A stretch of 42,731 bases of DNA from Alphaproteobacteria bacterium (lineage in GTDB: Bacteria; Pseudomonadota; Alphaproteobacteria; Bin95): assembly GCA_022826185.1 (NCBI GenBank), contig JAJDVH010000033.1, forward strand, positions 1 to 42,731, read 5' to 3'. Below, in pieces: positions 8,916 to 33,803 of this stretch (position 1 is its first letter; each line of letters starts with the position of its first letter). A model generated the notes under the pieces. It ran no database searches, was not told the DNA's origin, and saw nothing but the letters and a program-made list of their open reading frames with translations. Made by a program: the position numbers and the translations under genes.

Positions 8916-8954
8916 GGCGGCGATGTTCTCGTGAACGGCCTTCGATGTGAACCT

Positions 8955-8983
8955 AACCTATGGCTGGCCCCGATGCCCGTCAA
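8955..8983 (-). promoter_or_regulatory. Sigma70-like promoter of coiled-coil gene copy 1
   Basis: On the minus strand TTGACG (8978-8983) and TAGGTT (8955-8960) are separated by exactly 17 bp. The same boxes and spacer recur 385 bp away in front of copy 2, and this non-coding stretch is better conserved between the copies than much of the coding part. Confidence 0.55.
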
Positions 8984-9018
8984 TCGGAGCGCGCCGCAAG
9001 CGCGGATCGGGCGGCTTC

Positions 9019-9330
9019 CTATTCCGCCGCTGCGGGGCGCGCGGTGCGCTCGATCAGCGCGCGCAGCGCCGTCATCGTTTCCTCGTGACGGCGGATGTCG
9101 GCTTCGCGCCAGGCCTTGAGGTCGTCGCGCCAGGCCTTGAGGTCGTCTGCGGCTGCCCTGCGGTCGCGGGCGCGCTCGTCGGACGAACGGTCCATCGCCT
9201 TGAGGCCGCGCCAGATCAGGAAACAGGTGGCGCTGCCCACGACAATGGTCGAGGCGGCGATGGCGACGGTCGCCCAGGCGGCTATGAGCGCGGGGTCTAT
9301 GGCAGCAATGTTCTCGTGAACGGCCCTCAA
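9019..9330 (-). CDS. Small membrane-anchored coiled-coil protein, copy 2
   Basis: The product (up to 103 residues from TTG 9330) has the same membrane helix as copy 1 (ALIAAWATVAIAASTIVVGS), then a charged coiled-coil helix containing an internal 7-residue direct repeat (DLKAWRD-DLKAWRE). Where copy 1 has its ATG (ATGGACCC), this copy reads ATAGACCC, so the obvious start is lost. The only nearby alternative is TTG 9330, which lies within a few bases of the transcription start predicted from the promoter at 9340-9368. The gene may therefore be poorly translated or use a non-standard start. Function unknown. Confidence 0.55.
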   Translation of the reverse strand: MRAVHENIAAIDPALIAAWATVAIAASTIVVGSATCFLIWRGLKAMDRSSDERARDRRAAADDLKAWRDDLKAWREADIRRHEETMTALRALIERTARPAAAE

Positions 9331-9339
9331 CGTGAATCT

Positions 9340-9368
9340 AACCTATGGCTGGCCCCGATGCCCGTCAA
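9340..9368 (-). promoter_or_regulatory. Sigma70-like promoter of coiled-coil gene copy 2
   Basis: TTGACG (9363-9368) and TAGGTT (9340-9345) on the minus strand, 17-bp spacer, identical to the copy at 8955-8983. It would start transcription at about 9333, only a few bases before the sole in-frame start (TTG 9330). Confidence 0.55.
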
Positions 9369-9391
9369 TCGGAACGCGCTGCAAGTGCCGG

Positions 9392-10570
9392 CTACGCAGC
9401 CGCTTCGGAGAGCGCGGCCCCGGCGTCGTAGCCGTAGAGCCATATTTGCCCAGGCGGGAAGCCGCCGCGATAGTCCGCGCGGTCCTTCGCCAGCTTGGCG
9501 TTGCGCGCCGCGACTTCCGCCGGGTCCGCCAGCAGGCAGTGGCGCTCGACAGCGCGGGACCACGCTTGAACACGGTTGGCGCGGTCGCGCCGCAGCGCTT
9601 CGTAGCGCGCCAGCCCGTCCTCTCCCATGTCGTCGGCGAGGCAGCCGGCCAGCACCCAGGCGTCTTCCAGGCTCATGGCGGCGCCCTGCGCGTGATAGGG
9701 CATCATGGCATGCGCGGCGTCGCCGAGCAGCGTCGTCCGGCCGCGCGTCCAGGCGGGCAGGCCTTCCCGGTCGAACAGCGCCCATTCATGCACGGTTTCC
9801 GTGCGCTCCACCATGCGCGTCACCGTGGGCGGGAAGGGGGCCATCGCTTCGGCGGCGTCCTCCACCCGGCCGAGCCGCGACCAGGATTCCGGCGTCTCGC
9901 GGTCGGTGCGCGCAATCGCGATCCAGTTCATCAACCGCCCGGCCGCAACCCAATAGCGCACCATGCAGGCGTCCGGCCCCCACCACACACCCGACTCGCG
10001 CGGAATGTCGAGGTCGGCAAGCCGTTCGGCCGGAACCAGGGCGCGCCAGGCGACCGAGCCCGAGTCCCGCGCATTGCCTGTGCCGAAGAGATGGCGGCGC
10101 ACCGGGCTGTGTATGCCGTCCGCGCCGATGACGATGTCGGCTTCCACGGTCTCGCCATCTGTCAGCGTCAGGCGGCCTTCCTCCACGGCTGCAACCTGCG
10201 CCCCGAGCCTGATCCGACCCGAAGGCTGACGCCTGAGCAGGCCGTCCAGCAGGTCCGCCCGGTGGGCATGGTAGTAGGGATAGCCGAAGGTCTCCCGCGC
10301 CTCCCGACCGAGCGGAGCCTCGACCAGCATCTCGCCCTCGTGGCTGCGGATCGCAAGCCCCGCGGGCTCGACACCCCAGCCGGCCATGTCGTCTTCAAGG
10401 CCCAGCCAGGTCAGGATGCGCGTGGCGTTGGGGCTGAGCTGGATGCCGGCGCCGACCGCCTCGATAAGCGGCGCCTGTTCCAGCACCAGGGCGTCGATGC
10501 CTCGCTTTGCGAGGGAGAGGGAAAGCGCCAATCCGCCGATGCCGGCGCCGACGATGACGATCCGTGCCAT
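9392..10570 (-). CDS. FAD-dependent aromatic-type monooxygenase (salicylate hydroxylase-like)
   Basis: The 392-residue protein is a class A flavoprotein monooxygenase of the UbiH/salicylate hydroxylase group, which hydroxylates aromatic rings using NAD(P)H and O2. It shows the dinucleotide-binding GAGIGG (8-13), the DG motif in IGADGIHS (148-155) that binds FAD and NAD(P)H, and the GD motif LLGDAAHAMMPYHAQG (281-296) that contacts the FAD ribose. No membrane segment is present. The closest in style are salicylate 1-hydroxylase and 3-hydroxybenzoate 6-hydroxylase. A gentisate-dioxygenase-like gene lies 8 kb away (18363-19484) and would fit the product of a 3-hydroxybenzoate 6-hydroxylase, but the genes are not linked in an operon. 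The start ATG 10570 is 22 bp downstream of the mcd stop. Confidence 0.88.
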   Translation of the reverse strand: MARIVIVGAGIGGLALSLSLAKRGIDALVLEQAPLIEAVGAGIQLSPNATRILTWLGLEDDMAGWGVEPAGLAIRSHEGEMLVEAPLGREARETFGYPYYHAHRADLLDGLLRRQPSGRIRLGAQVAAVEEGRLTLTDGETVEADIVIGADGIHSPVRRHLFGTGNARDSGSVAWRALVPAERLADLDIPRESGVWWGPDACMVRYWVAAGRLMNWIAIARTDRETPESWSRLGRVEDAAEAMAPFPPTVTRMVERTETVHEWALFDREGLPAWTRGRTTLLGDAAHAMMPYHAQGAAMSLEDAWVLAGCLADDMGEDGLARYEALRRDRANRVQAWSRAVERHCLLADPAEVAARNAKLAKDRADYRGGFPPGQIWLYGYDAGAALSEAAA

Positions 10571-14044: not shown

Positions 14045-14056
14045 GGTGATACGGGA

Positions 14057-14089
14057 CTCATACCGGCGGCCTCGACTTCAGACTCACGG
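14057..14089 (+). repeat. Short terminal repeat motif (ATACCGGCGG...)
   Basis: A 33-bp match to the reverse strand of 126-156 and 19693-19727 (ATACCNRCGGC, TCGACTT, GACTCA). It lies 15 bp past the TauE stop. Its partner terminus and hairpin were not found nearby, so it may be a solo end. Confidence 0.5.
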
Positions 14090-14208
14090 GAAGATTGCGG
14101 CCCGTATCGTCACCCCGGCTCGGGGGCCTGCCGCCTGCTCCCATCGCGTCCGGTATGCCTGTAGCCCCTCCGCCAGGGCCGGGACGCCGGCCGGGAGACC
14201 GGCGGATG

Positions 14209-14266
14209 TGTCATGGAATGTCATGTTCGGTCATGTGCGCCGCCGGAAATGTCATGTTTTGTCATG
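14209..14266. repeat. Five phased CATGACA heptamers, copy 1
   Basis: On the plus strand TGTCATG occurs at 14209, 14219, 14250 and 14260, and GGTCATG at 14229. Start-to-start spacings are 10, 10, 21 and 10 bp, about one or two helical turns. The mirror array in copy 2 has identical spacing. It looks like an iteron or multi-site operator for one DNA-binding protein. Confidence 0.65.
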
Positions 14267-14351
14267 CGGGGCCGTTTCCGCCGGGCTGTCGGCGCGGTCC
14301 TCCTGCCGGGCTGCGGCGAGGGTTTCGGCGGCGGGGGCCGGTTGCGGTCAT
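14262..14351 (-). CDS. Tiny downstream ORF of repeat element, copy 1 (frameshifted)
   Basis: ATG 14351 follows a strong ribosome-binding site (aaggaggagg) and overlaps the stop of the Arg-rich ORF. Here the frame runs 29 residues and ends at the first CATGA of the heptamer array. Copy 2 lacks one C in the opening codons and so reads a different 34-residue frame. At most one of the two copies can encode the ancestral product. Confidence 0.25.
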   Translation of the reverse strand: MTATGPRRRNPRRSPAGGPRRQPGGNGPA

Positions 14352-14515
14352 GCGTGCCTCCTCCTTCGGGGCCAGGGGCGGGACGGGCGGTCCCTGTTTT
14401 GCGCGCGTTTCGCGTGTGCGGGCGTGCGCGGCTGCGGGCGGGTGTCGGCGCCGGCGCGGTTCGCGCACCTGATTGCGCGCGCGAGACGGCGCACGCACCT
14501 CTCGCGCTTGCTCAC
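14348..14515 (-). CDS. Small Arg-rich ORF of repeat element, copy 1
   Basis: A possible 55-residue basic protein from GTG 14515 (starts SKRERCVRRLARAIRCANRA, ends RRRRHA). The copy 2 counterpart is 50 residues; the two differ by one 12-base and one 3-base indel, both multiples of three, so the frame and stop are kept. The stop overlaps the ATG of the next ORF (ATGA). There is no good ribosome-binding site before the GTG. The ORF lies downstream of two hairpins. It may be real, or a by-product of a GC-rich structured RNA. Confidence 0.35.
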   Translation of the reverse strand: MSKRERCVRRLARAIRCANRAGADTRPQPRTPAHAKRAQNRDRPSRPWPRRRRHA

Positions 14516-14712
14516 GCCGGGGGCTTTTTCGGCCCCCAGCCGGTCGCTTTCTGCAGAAAAGCCGAAAGGCGGCCCCGGAAGCCGCCTCTCTCTACTTTCA
14601 TTCTACACCATACCGCCAAATGTCAAGTCGGGCCGGGAACAAAAAATGAAAACATCAGAGATTCTCCACGAAATGCCAGTGGAATGGAGGTCCGGATCGA
14701 CGCTCGCCGGTA

Positions 14713-16146
14713 TCAGCTGCGGTCTGCGAACAGCGGCGCGGCGGCCCGGTATCTGACGGGGTCGGTCCGCCGCACCATCCGCCCCTCGTCCACCGCCCGT
14801 TTCAGCCAGTCCCCCGCCTGGCTTTCCCTTACTCCGATCTGCGCCGCGATATCGCCGGTCCGCGTCGGAACGGCCGATGCGATCGTCAAAGCGCGACCAA
14901 GAAACAGCTCGTAGAAATCGCCGTCCTGAGGGCTGCGGGGCGCGCATGGCGGCACGCTGTATTGTCCGCTGCGCTTACCTGCGGCGACCCGGCCGTTCGA
15001 GACTGCGCGCCGCAGCCAGTCTTCCGCTTGCGGCTTCTTCAGTCCGAGGCAGTCGGCGATGCGTTGCGCGCCGACAGGCTTGTCCGCCGTGAGTTCGGCC
15101 ATGCGGGCGAGGAAGAGCGCGTAGAGGCCGTCATCCGCCGGCGCGGTCGCGTACGGCTCCGGCTCTTCCTGCAACGAAGGGGCGGCAGGCTCCAGCGGCA
15201 GGCGGTCCTGTCGGGCGGGGCGCGCGCCCTCCACCAGTTGTGAAAGCGGGAAGGGTTCCTCCGGCAGCCATTTCGCGCCATGCCGGACAAGTTCCGGGTT
15301 GCCGGAACCGGGCGCATTGTCCGGCTTCACCCAGAGCGGGACCCGGCCATGCTTCAGGTTCTCTTGGGCGCCGCTCCAGGTTCCTCCCTTGCCGGACTCG
15401 CTGCTGACAACGACCGCAGCATCGGCGAGGCAATAGATATAGGCGTTCCGCTCCATCGCCTTGCCGACATGGAAGCGGGCCTCGGGATTGAACGGGGAAA
15501 TGAGGGCCAGGCCGCCCGACAGGATGTGTTGGCGGTAGTCGGCGGCCATCGCCGACCGGAGAAGGCTGTCGGCGAGGACGCCGAGCGCCGCGCCGTCCCG
15601 TTCGAGCGCTCCCTGCATTGCGCGCCTGTCTATGCCGCGCGCGCCGCCGGACACGAGCGAACAGCCTTGCTCGGCGGCCTTGGCACCCAGACTGCGGGCG
15701 AATTCGAGGCCGTCCTCGCCGGCGTTTCGGGAGCCGACGACGGCGATGCCGCCCCGCTCCAGCAGCGCCTTGTTTCCGCAACCGAAGAGCACGGCGGGCG
15801 CCGCCCTGCCGAGGCGCCGCTTCAGGCGCTCCGGATAATCGGGGTCGGAGCGGGTGAGCACCCACAGCCCGGCCCGCTCCCAACGCTCCAGGGAGAGGCC
15901 GAGCGCCGCGCCCCGGTTGAGCAGCGCGCGCAGCCGCTCGCGCGTTACCTTCCGGTCCTCCCGGCCCTCGAGCAGCGCGTCGAGATCGCCTTTCAGCAGA
16001 GCGGAAGGCTCCAGCCCGTTGTCGTGCAGCCAGACAGCGAGTCGTCCCCATTCCCTGTTGGAGAGCGGCTTGCTGCCACTGGAGTCGGATTTCCCGAACG
16101 AGACATTCAGGAGCAGCACTGCCTGGGCTTGAGGTGTCAGCAGCAT
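14713..16146 (-). CDS. dprA: DprA/Smf-like DNA-processing protein with duplicated C-terminal wHTH-like repeat
   Basis: The 477-residue protein has the DprA Rossmann-like ssDNA-binding core: GSRNAG and SGGARGID (about 138-143 and 166-173), the family signatures. After a linker rich in Pro and Glu (about 305-340) come two related winged-helix-like units, one with the pattern IADCLGLKKPQAEDWLRRAV and one with IAAQIGVRESQAGDWLKRAV, each about 60 residues. Canonical DprA has one such tail domain. I prefer ATG 16146, which has AGGTGG upstream; GTG 16155 is an alternative. The gene abuts the RecQ-phosphoribosyltransferase gene, so they form an operon. DprA normally loads RecA on incoming single strands; this lone paralogue paired with a helicase is more likely an accessory or defence form than the competence gene. 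Confidence 0.85.
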   Translation of the reverse strand: MLLTPQAQAVLLLNVSFGKSDSSGSKPLSNREWGRLAVWLHDNGLEPSALLKGDLDALLEGREDRKVTRERLRALLNRGAALGLSLERWERAGLWVLTRSDPDYPERLKRRLGRAAPAVLFGCGNKALLERGGIAVVGSRNAGEDGLEFARSLGAKAAEQGCSLVSGGARGIDRRAMQGALERDGAALGVLADSLLRSAMAADYRQHILSGGLALISPFNPEARFHVGKAMERNAYIYCLADAAVVVSSESGKGGTWSGAQENLKHGRVPLWVKPDNAPGSGNPELVRHGAKWLPEEPFPLSQLVEGARPARQDRLPLEPAAPSLQEEPEPYATAPADDGLYALFLARMAELTADKPVGAQRIADCLGLKKPQAEDWLRRAVSNGRVAAGKRSGQYSVPPCAPRSPQDGDFYELFLGRALTIASAVPTRTGDIAAQIGVRESQAGDWLKRAVDEGRMVRRTDPVRYRAAAPLFADRS

Positions 16147-16155
16147 GGCGCCCAC

Positions 16156-18309
16156 CTACCGGGCCGTCGCCAGCGCCAGCGGCCACACGGGACCGCCGCC
16201 GGCCCGCCGTAGCAGGGCCGCCACCACCGTCATCGTCCACGCCGAGTCCACCACATCGTCAACGAGCAGGACAGGATCGGCGGGCGGCTTGCCGGCGATG
16301 GAGAAAACGCCGTCGAGATTGCGGCACTGGTGGAACCTGTTCTGCTGGGCCTTCTGCGGCTCGTTGTCCATCACCTTCTCGACCAGCGGCAGGAACGGCA
16401 AGCCGAGCCTGTTGCCGAGGCGCTCGGCAAAGTCAGGCACAAGGTCCGGCCGGTTTCTGGAGGGCACGCAGGTTATCCATGCGGGCTCCGGCATCGGCCG
16501 CCAGCGGCCCCGGATCACCTCGGCTGCCGCATCGACGAGTTTATCGTCGAACCGGCCGCCGCGCTTGCCTTCCGCAACCAGTCCTCCCCAGCCCGTGTCG
16601 TTCCAGCGTGACAGGATGCGCCCGGTCTGGGCCAGCAGTTCGTCAGGAAGCCTTCCTTCGAATCCGTATTGGGCAAAGGCGTCCCGCGCGACCCATTTCT
16701 TGCATTTGAGATGGGTCTCCGACCGGCGCAGGAAGCGTTCTGCATCCTCTTGCAAACGGCGCTTGTAGGAACGTGTGACGATGGGACGGCCAACGCAGTT
16801 GGCGCATTTCCCGCAAGGTTGAGGATCCTCGTCGTCCAGAGAGCGGGCCAGGAACTCCATCAGGCAGCCGGGTTCGTCCAGGAAGGCCCGGACCTCGTTC
16901 CACTCGACGCTGCGTTGAGCCGTCAGCCGTCGGATGCGCTCAAGGTCCATCCGGTAGTGAACGGCTGTTCGATGCCATTTCGCTCCGTTCCGGAATACCG
17001 GGGCCGGAGTTTCCATCGAAAGGAACTTCAGCGCCTGCTCGATTTGCCCGCGGCGCAGATTGACGACCTCTTCCAGTTGGCGAAGCGACATTCCCTCGCC
17101 CTGTTCCAGAGCCGTGAGGATCGACTCGACCCATTGCTCGTCGGGAAAGGCGCTGCTGCGGAACCAGTCGTGTATGTCGTCGTCTTCCCGGCCGGACATG
17201 AGGACGCAAACGGCGCGGTCGATCGCCCGGCCGGCGCGGCCCACCTGCTGGTAGTAGGCAATGATCGATCCCGGCGCCTGGTAATGGATGACAAACCCGA
17301 GATCGGGCTTGTCGTAGCCCATGCCGAGGGCCGTCGTCGCCACCAGCGCCTTGATCCCGTTGCCCAGAAGAAGGTCTTCGAGATGCTGCCTGTAGGAGTT
17401 GCTGTCGGCGAACCCGTCGCCGGTCACACCGCTGTAATACGATTTGGCGGCTATCCCGTTCTGGTTCAGCCATGCGGCGACCTGGTCCGCGTCGCGCTTG
17501 GTCAGAGTGTAGATGATCCCGGTGCCGGGAAGCTCGTTCAGGTGCTCCGCCAGCCATGCGAGGCGAATGGCCTGGGAGGGTACGCGCATCGCCTGCAGTT
17601 CGAGCGATTGCCTCATCAGCGGACCGCGCTGCACCCTGATATTGCCGAGTTGGGTCTGGACGTCCTCGATGACCCTGTCGTTCGCCGTGGCAGTCGTGCC
17701 GACGACGGGCAGATTGCCGGGCATCGACCGCAGGATATTGACCAGGCGCCGGTAGTCGGGGCGGAAGTCGTGCCCCCAGTCCGAGATGCAGTGGGCCTCA
17801 TCGACGACCAGAAGGCCGATATTTCCGGCAATCGGCATCAGCACTTCGTTCGCGAACTCGTCATTTGCCAGGCGTTCCGGCGAGATCAGGAGGGCATCGG
17901 CTTCGCCCGCCCGAACGGTTCGCTGAAGCTCCGGCCAGTCGTCCCGGTTCGCGGAGTTGATCGTTAACGCGCGGATGCCGAGCCGTTCGGCCGCCTCGAT
18001 CTGGTTGCGCATCAGAGCCAGCAAGGGCGATACGATAAGCGCCGGGCCCTGACCCCTGTTCCGGAGAATCCGGGTCGCCACGAAATACACGGCGCTCTTG
18101 CCCCAGCCGGTCCGTTCCACGACCAGCAGCCGCTCCCGGCGGTTCGCCAGCGCGTCGATGGCTTCCCACTGGCCGGGGCGGAACGATGCCGTCGGATCGG
18201 CCAGCGCGGTGCGGAGCATGGCAAGCGCGGCGGTTTGGGTCGTGACTCCCATCGGGCCGTTTCGGCCGCCTCTGCGCGAACCTCCCGCCCCTCCCCTGCG
18301 GCTCCTCAT
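16156..18309 (-). CDS. RecQ-family DNA helicase fused to a phosphoribosyltransferase domain
   Basis: The 717-residue protein has a complete RecQ core: Walker A TGWGKS (67-72), DEAH followed by CISDWGHDFRPDY (170-186), motif VI QQVGRAGR (354-361) and the RecQ zinc site C482, C499, C502, C505 (CX16CX2CX2C). Residues about 600-717 are not the usual HRDC domain but a phosphoribosyltransferase-like domain, with the PRPP-loop pattern VLLVDDVVDSAWTMT at 680-694. It is directly upstream of the DprA-like gene with no gap. A second start at 18252 would remove an Arg/Gly-rich N-terminus. The protein would unwind DNA; the PRTase domain may bind a nucleotide or PRPP as a sensor, or modify a base. That last role is inference. 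Confidence 0.87.
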   Translation of the reverse strand: MRSRRGGAGGSRRGGRNGPMGVTTQTAALAMLRTALADPTASFRPGQWEAIDALANRRERLLVVERTGWGKSAVYFVATRILRNRGQGPALIVSPLLALMRNQIEAAERLGIRALTINSANRDDWPELQRTVRAGEADALLISPERLANDEFANEVLMPIAGNIGLLVVDEAHCISDWGHDFRPDYRRLVNILRSMPGNLPVVGTTATANDRVIEDVQTQLGNIRVQRGPLMRQSLELQAMRVPSQAIRLAWLAEHLNELPGTGIIYTLTKRDADQVAAWLNQNGIAAKSYYSGVTGDGFADSNSYRQHLEDLLLGNGIKALVATTALGMGYDKPDLGFVIHYQAPGSIIAYYQQVGRAGRAIDRAVCVLMSGREDDDIHDWFRSSAFPDEQWVESILTALEQGEGMSLRQLEEVVNLRRGQIEQALKFLSMETPAPVFRNGAKWHRTAVHYRMDLERIRRLTAQRSVEWNEVRAFLDEPGCLMEFLARSLDDEDPQPCGKCANCVGRPIVTRSYKRRLQEDAERFLRRSETHLKCKKWVARDAFAQYGFEGRLPDELLAQTGRILSRWNDTGWGGLVAEGKRGGRFDDKLVDAAAEVIRGRWRPMPEPAWITCVPSRNRPDLVPDFAERLGNRLGLPFLPLVEKVMDNEPQKAQQNRFHQCRNLDGVFSIAGKPPADPVLLVDDVVDSAWTMTVVAALLRRAGGGPVWPLALATAR

Positions 18310-33138: not shown

Positions 33139-33201
33139 GGATTTATACCAACGACCGCCGGTGCAATGCCCTGCATTTTCATTTTTTGTTCCCGGAGGGA
33201 C

Positions 33202-33228
33202 TTGACATTTGGCGGTATGGTGTATGAT
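33202..33228 (+). promoter_or_regulatory. Conserved TTGACA promoter of repeat element
   Basis: Consensus -35 TTGACA and a near-consensus -10 TATGAT (TAGAAT in copy 1) with a short 15-bp spacer. The same 27 bp are kept in both copies. The spacing is below the sigma70 optimum, so it may be weak or need an activator. Confidence 0.5.
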
Positions 33229-33312
33229 GAAAGTAGAGAGAGGCGGCTCCCGGGGCCGCCTTTCGGGGTTTCTGCAGAAAGCGACCGGCTGGGGGCCGAA
33301 AAAGCCCCCGGC

Positions 33313-33465
33313 GTGAGCAAGCGCGAGAGGTGCGTGCGCCGTCTCGCGCGCGCAATCAGGTGCGCGAACCGCGCCGGCGCCGACACCCGCCCGCGCCCGC
33401 ACGCGAAACGCGCGCAAAACAGGGACGCTCCGTCCCGCCCTTTGCCTGAAAGGAGGCACGCATGA
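33313..33465 (+). CDS. Small Arg-rich ORF of repeat element, copy 2
   Basis: A possible 50-residue basic protein from GTG 33313, whose first 29 residues are identical to those of copy 1 (SKRERCVRRLARAIRCANRA and on). It then loses four codons and later one codon relative to copy 1, keeping frame, and ends RRHA. The stop overlaps the next ATG (ATGA). No clear ribosome-binding site precedes GTG. It is not a family I recognise. Confidence 0.35.
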   Translation: MSKRERCVRRLARAIRCANRAGADTRPRPHAKRAQNRDAPSRPLPERRHA

Positions 33466-33566
33466 CCGAAACCGATCCCGCCGCCGAAACCCTCGCCGCA
33501 GCTCGGCGGAAACGGCCCCGCATGACAAAACATGACATTTCCGGCAGCGCGCATGACAGAACATGA
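33462..33566 (+). CDS. Tiny downstream ORF of repeat element, copy 2
   Basis: A possible 34-residue protein (begins MTETDPAAETLAAARRKRPR) whose ATG sits 5 bases after a near-perfect ribosome-binding site, aaaggagg, the best in the element. It reads through the first three CATGACA heptamers (33521, 33531, 33552) and stops inside the fourth. Copy 1 has an extra C and reads a different frame, so this version could be the intact one. Confidence 0.35.
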   Translation: MTETDPAAETLAAARRKRPRMTKHDISGSAHDRT

Positions 33567-33578
33567 CATTCCATGACA
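33521..33578. repeat. Five phased CATGACA heptamers, copy 2
   Basis: CATGACA starts at 33521, 33531, 33552, 33562 and 33572 (spacings 10, 21, 10, 10 bp). All five are exact and in the same direction. The array matches copy 1 in spacing. Confidence 0.7.
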
Positions 33579-33803
33579 CTTCGCGGAGGGTCTCTCGATA
33601 TGCGGCTGGCGCCGCTACGCGGGATGACGGACTTGTCCGCCCCGCCGCTATCCCGGCCCTAGCGGAGTGCGCCGCAGGCGGGTCGACGGGCATATCCTGC
33701 GCAAACCGGGGCGAGATGTGCGCCTGCGGCAGGGCTGAGGGCCGGTGCGGCCTGCTTGCCGGGGAATCGGTCCGGGCGCTAGTCTCCGGAGCGCCAAGGA
33801 GCC

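Follow-up and report, generated by a model that had tools for sequence, protein, structure and literature searches.

A probable PsyrTA (RqlHI) toxin-antitoxin operon with a doubled antitoxin tail in an alphaproteobacterial lineage

Identity of the gene pair

The stretch of alphaproteobacterial DNA analyzed here (42,731 nucleotides; hereafter, the window) carries two adjacent genes, one for a RecQ-type helicase with a phosphoribosyltransferase (PRTase) domain at its C-terminus and one for a DprA-like partner. The first-pass annotation had described the pair as a RecQ-PRTase helicase and a long DprA with two winged-helix-like tails, which our analysis confirmed. Both open reading frames (ORFs) are indeed open on the minus strand, the helicase ORF at 16156-18309 (717 aa) and the DprA-like ORF at 14713-16155 (480 aa), with the GTG of the latter at 16155 directly after the helicase stop. 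In profile searches, the helicase matched the PADLOC model PsyrT (PDLC03928) over the whole of its length (E 1.4e-291, profile positions 5-684 of 689), while the second protein matched PsyrA (PDLC03927, 398 positions) with an E-value of 2.5e-153 and 509 bits, ShosA being a distant second at 96 bits. PsyrTA is the Pseudomonas syringae toxin-antitoxin system, also named RqlHI, under which name it was characterized in E. coli F11 in 2015 by Russell and Mulvey (PMC4670107). The window helicase is 60% identical to an E. coli plasmid homologue and 57% identical to the chromosomal copy of E. coli Nissle, and the window antitoxin is 43-46% identical to its E. coli homologues (46% to the Nissle copy). 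The gene order and architecture are likewise those of PsyrTA, with the helicase gene first and the antitoxin gene directly downstream on the same strand, starting 0-9 bp past the helicase stop. The same toxin-first, adjacent order occurs in every relative with both genes available for comparison and is the one given by Russell and Mulvey (PMC4670107). From these sequence comparisons, it is highly probable that the window pair constitutes a PsyrTA (RqlHI) toxin-antitoxin operon, composed of a RecQ-type helicase-PRTase toxin and a DprA-like antitoxin. The gene pair is thus one already known and named, present here as a complete and recognizable copy that is ordinary except for its doubled antitoxin tail. 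The earlier interpretation was partly borne out, the pair being operonic, patchy and accessory and its PRPP loop intact in relatives, but it had not recognized the known toxin-antitoxin system.

For both genes, the likely translation start lies inside the ORF. The helicase probably begins at the ATG at 18252 (MGVTTQ), which gives the best profile fit, rather than at the ORF opening at 18309, placing the PsyrT/RqlH-type toxin at 16156..18252 on the minus strand, an assignment drawn from the PsyrT match, the E. coli homologues and the predicted model. The antitoxin likely begins at the ATG at 16146 (MLLTPQ), three codons past the GTG at 16155; this ATG coincides with the first position of the PsyrA profile and is the start that congeners conserve. 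The PsyrA/RqlI-type antitoxin would then span 14713..16146 on the minus strand. Because profile alignment and conservation favor the later ATGs, the first 19 helicase and first 3 antitoxin residues are probably untranslated.

The toxin and its PRTase domain

A domain search of the helicase returned DEAD and Helicase_C, followed by a C-terminal Pribosyltran domain that was sub-threshold on the window protein itself (E 1.6e-4) but was detected in 13/13 relatives scanned. The RecQ motifs TGWGKS (Walker A), DEAH and QVGRAGR (motif VI) are intact and conserved, as are the four zinc-site cysteines (C482, C499, C502 and C505), bearing out the earlier description of an intact RecQ core and zinc site. 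A structure search with the predicted helicase model likewise matched RecQ catalytic cores; helicase matches filled the list and the PRTase was not placed separately, while a PDB search with the PRTase domain sequence found PRTase-class proteins only at weak E-values (0.2-0.4). The domain, at approximately 16156..16560 on the minus strand, was delimited from the Pribosyltran matches in relatives, motif alignment and the Nissle numbering, and its PRPP loop reads PVLLVDDVVDSAWTMT, in agreement with the C-terminal PRTase proposed previously. By alignment, K71, D170 and D685 of the window toxin correspond to K49, D148 and D663 of E. coli RqlH, a numbering reproduced in the Nissle protein, in which DIVD lies at 663. 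All three RqlH residues have been mutated in E. coli, where D663A or loss of the PRTase abolished toxicity, while the helicase mutants caused a complex change (PMC4670107).

The PRPP loop deserved particular scrutiny, as a degenerate loop in relatives would have argued against the earlier interpretation. In the window it is DDVVDSAWT, and the pattern D-D-x-x-D-S-x-W-T is kept throughout the family, with a single broken copy as the exception; none of the intact copies examined differs in the acidic residues. Within DSxWT, relatives differ at the third position, the usual glycine site (G, A, T, R or K), but not at the others, and the Nissle RqlH has the identical DSAWT loop, alanine included. 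With the acidic residues and those of DS-WT unchanged outside the broken copy, we reject degeneracy and regard the loop as a family variant.

Other helicase assignments fared poorly. A housekeeping RecQ was rejected, as the toxin has a RecQ helicase core but reaches only 255.1 of the 640.2 bits required by the NCBIfam recQ equivalog cut-off. The Dpd DNA-modification helicase DpdF matched the helicase portion as well as fragments toward the C-terminus, with a best E-value of 9.6e-88 that is far below the PsyrT match, and it missed the NCBIfam equivalog cut-off (144.6 of 550 bits); it too was rejected. The same genome has canonical DprA and RecQ-like genes at other loci. It also contains a RecQ-like helicase domain within an open frame of ~1805 aa (L005, G000:C272:6553-7647).

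The antitoxin and its doubled tail

The second gene carries a DprA Rossmann domain (DNA_processg_A, E 2.7e-40), and the predicted fold matches DprA and ShosA structures, ShosA (8zva) being the second-best match. Although this Rossmann core is shared with canonical DprA, the protein scores only 95 of the 191.15 bits of the NCBIfam dprA equivalog cut-off, and a housekeeping DprA was therefore rejected. ShosTA and the P2-prophage DprA plus PRTase system also couple a DprA-like antitoxin to a PRTase toxin, as in the window. ShosT is a PRTase that is not known to carry a RecQ helicase, whereas the window PRTase is fused to a helicase rather than stand-alone. Given this fusion and a ShosA score far under that of PsyrA, membership in ShosTA was rejected as well.

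The window antitoxin is ~80 residues longer than the PsyrA profile, and the excess corresponds to a second winged helix. Residues 341-402 (14950..15135) and 411-480 (14716..14925, both on the minus strand) form a tandem duplication, with an alignment score of 95 compared to 23.5 +/- 4.7 for shuffled sequences (z ~15). Each tail is predicted to be a three-helix winged-helix-like unit, the first having three helices plus a strand, at moderate model confidence (pLDDT ~70-75). The two winged-helix-like tails noted earlier therefore reflect a true duplication. Both copies are present in all six pair-bearing members of the genus, while the outgroup PsyrA proteins examined have one or none. RqlHI itself shares with the window pair the catalytic residues and the DSAWT loop, but RqlI of strain F11 is a 400-aa protein with one helix-turn-helix, as opposed to the two tandem tails found here. 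A tail of this type occurs in the window protein, but in duplicate, and judging from the sequences compared, the duplicated C-terminal winged helix alone clearly sets the window pair apart from the described PsyrTA family. In E. coli, RqlI 1-320 still neutralizes the toxin although it lacks the helix-turn-helix (PMC4670107). A single such tail is therefore no strict requirement of the family, and the likely role of the tails is in binding DNA or in regulation, not in neutralization as such. It seems rather unlikely that the doubling gives the antitoxin of this genus a novel layer of sensing or regulation, for instance cooperative DNA binding that autoregulates the operon or a two-site DNA sensor for toxin release.

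Distribution, context and possible function

The pair was expected to occur in a scattered way outside the core genome, and its distribution agrees with this. Strong PsyrT matches were found in 6/8 genomes of the genus (one copy, in G003, is split between contigs), in none of the six other genomes of the family examined, and in 1 of 101 genomes from the rest of the class. PsyrA occurs in the same six genus genomes and in no other of the order's 14, so that the pair, present in 6/14, is not universal in the order. The congener G006 provides an empty site, in which 84 bp separate the TauE gene from the cupin gene, compared to 4.3 kb in the window, indicating a clean accessory insertion or loss (segment 14046..18362). 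Among 19 loci fetched by PsyrA similarity, the helicase gene lies directly upstream of PsyrA in 18, the nineteenth (L047) being a distant DprA; of these 18 helicases, three are cut by contig ends (L029, L039, L041), one has only its C-terminal part open (L035), and one is interrupted (L045). The broken copy mentioned above belongs to G007, in whose toxin gene an in-frame TAG follows residue 355 and VDDVVDS has become VADVVDS, next to an intact antitoxin (L033 5894-7993, G007:C225). A broken toxin beside an intact antitoxin is as expected if toxin lacking its antitoxin does harm and antitoxin lacking its toxin does not. It is possible that this toxin was naturally inactivated, or it could be an assembly error, as the genome is metagenome-assembled. 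PsyrA identity is only 66-84% in four congeners, compared to mostly 90-98% for flanking genes. A search of a phage collection returned no record covering 80% of the helicase, and hence no sign of prophage carriage there.

Metabolic genes surround the pair both in the window and in four congeners; they encode an acyl-CoA dehydrogenase, a ribonucleotide reductase, TauE, a cupin, a luciferase-like protein and an MFS protein, together with what we take by eye from the sequence to be aroA and cmk. No defence genes flank the pair in any of these five genomes, and thus it does not lie in a defence island. More distant relatives do have such surroundings. An E. coli plasmid pair (L048, NZ_OX030731.1) sits within a type I restriction system, between its S and R genes, an Acinetobacter plasmid pair (L049, NZ_CP090068.1) lies inside a BREX system between pglX and pglZ, and the L034 pair adjoins CapP-like and Lit-like peptidases. 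The 668-bp spacer at 14045-14712 was considered as a part of the system and rejected, being a genome-wide repeat that is missing between the same genes in four congeners. This ~500 bp repeat also occurs at 33176-33582 and in ~40 further good copies in the genome (78-94% identity over part of the repeat's length), and it lies between the antitoxin and TauE genes in the window and L029, not in the four congeners. Elsewhere in the window, frames at 8947 and 9332 open with the same peptide, MNLTYGWPRCPSIG (8947-9400), suggesting a short direct DNA repeat.

In E. coli, RqlHI has been shown to be an operon whose products interact physically, with a PRTase-dependent genotoxicity that induces SOS and is neutralized by the partner (PMC4670107). 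We infer that the window pair would be toxic and neutralized in the same manner, with a DNA trigger freeing the toxin. While both proteins are present, PsyrA would bind PsyrT and, with the helicase part, restrain the PRTase, as shown for E. coli RqlHI. Upon loss of this balance, the PRTase would be taken to DNA by the helicase, resulting in DNA damage, SOS induction and growth arrest, an outcome shown in E. coli. The PRTase may act upon DNA bases or upon the free nucleotide/PRPP pool. Unusual DNA probably serves as the natural trigger, for instance single-stranded DNA from a phage, plasmid or damaged fork. The DprA Rossmann domain, the winged-helix tails or both may do the sensing, and the extra winged helix most likely offers one more contact, with DNA or with a partner, that serves in sensing or autoregulation. 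Against the toxin-antitoxin reading, many Gram-positive bacteria encode RqlH but not RqlI (PMC4670107), which suggests that RqlH toxicity is context-dependent.

What such a toxin-antitoxin pair is selected for can be read in several ways. In an abortive-infection role, which is compatible with the toxin-antitoxin reading and would make defence the selected function, PsyrA would sense phage DNA and free PsyrT to kill or arrest the infected cell. The restriction, BREX and peptidase contexts of some relatives make defence a reasonable guess for the family, which is listed in PADLOC, and a related DprA plus PRTase pair protects against T7 and lambda (PMC9122126); the accessory site and the fast divergence of PsyrA are in keeping with this as well. 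Set against these are the TauE, ribonucleotide reductase, cupin and luciferase-like neighbors in place of flanking defence genes in the window and congeners, and the E. coli NILS69 PsyrTA, for which no protection was detected in K-12 cells expressing it (PMC12409345). The anti-phage proposal of the first-pass annotation is thus plausible from the context of some relatives but finds neither a defence context here nor backing from the E. coli test, and we place its probability slightly short of even.

Cooperative genome maintenance, as proposed in PMC4670107, would have RqlH alter or unwind damaged DNA and RqlI resolve the intermediate, with toxicity a by-product of an unbalanced pathway. RqlH is a helicase that many bacteria retain without the antitoxin, which speaks for such a role, but the patchy presence and clean empty site within one genus do not, nor does the rqlHI deletion in E. 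coli, for which no fitness cost was found (PMC4670107), and we consider this account improbable. Control of DNA uptake, also suggested earlier, would tie the pair to competence via DprA and a ComF-like PRTase. It draws upon domain resemblance only, competence genes also bearing DprA and PRTase domains (PMC4670107), whereas the genome has its own canonical DprA (C213), competence genes were not found at the locus, and natural transformation was undetected in the E. coli authors' isolates (PMC4670107). The suggestion is unsupported and very improbable.

Read as a PsyrTA/RqlHI operon, the window pair would bring into this family a lineage of Alphaproteobacteria known through metagenome assemblies. 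The window also offers a clean comparison between presence and absence at a single site, along with a naturally occurring antitoxin whose tail is doubled. The alignment of the DSxWT loop shows which of its residues are constant.
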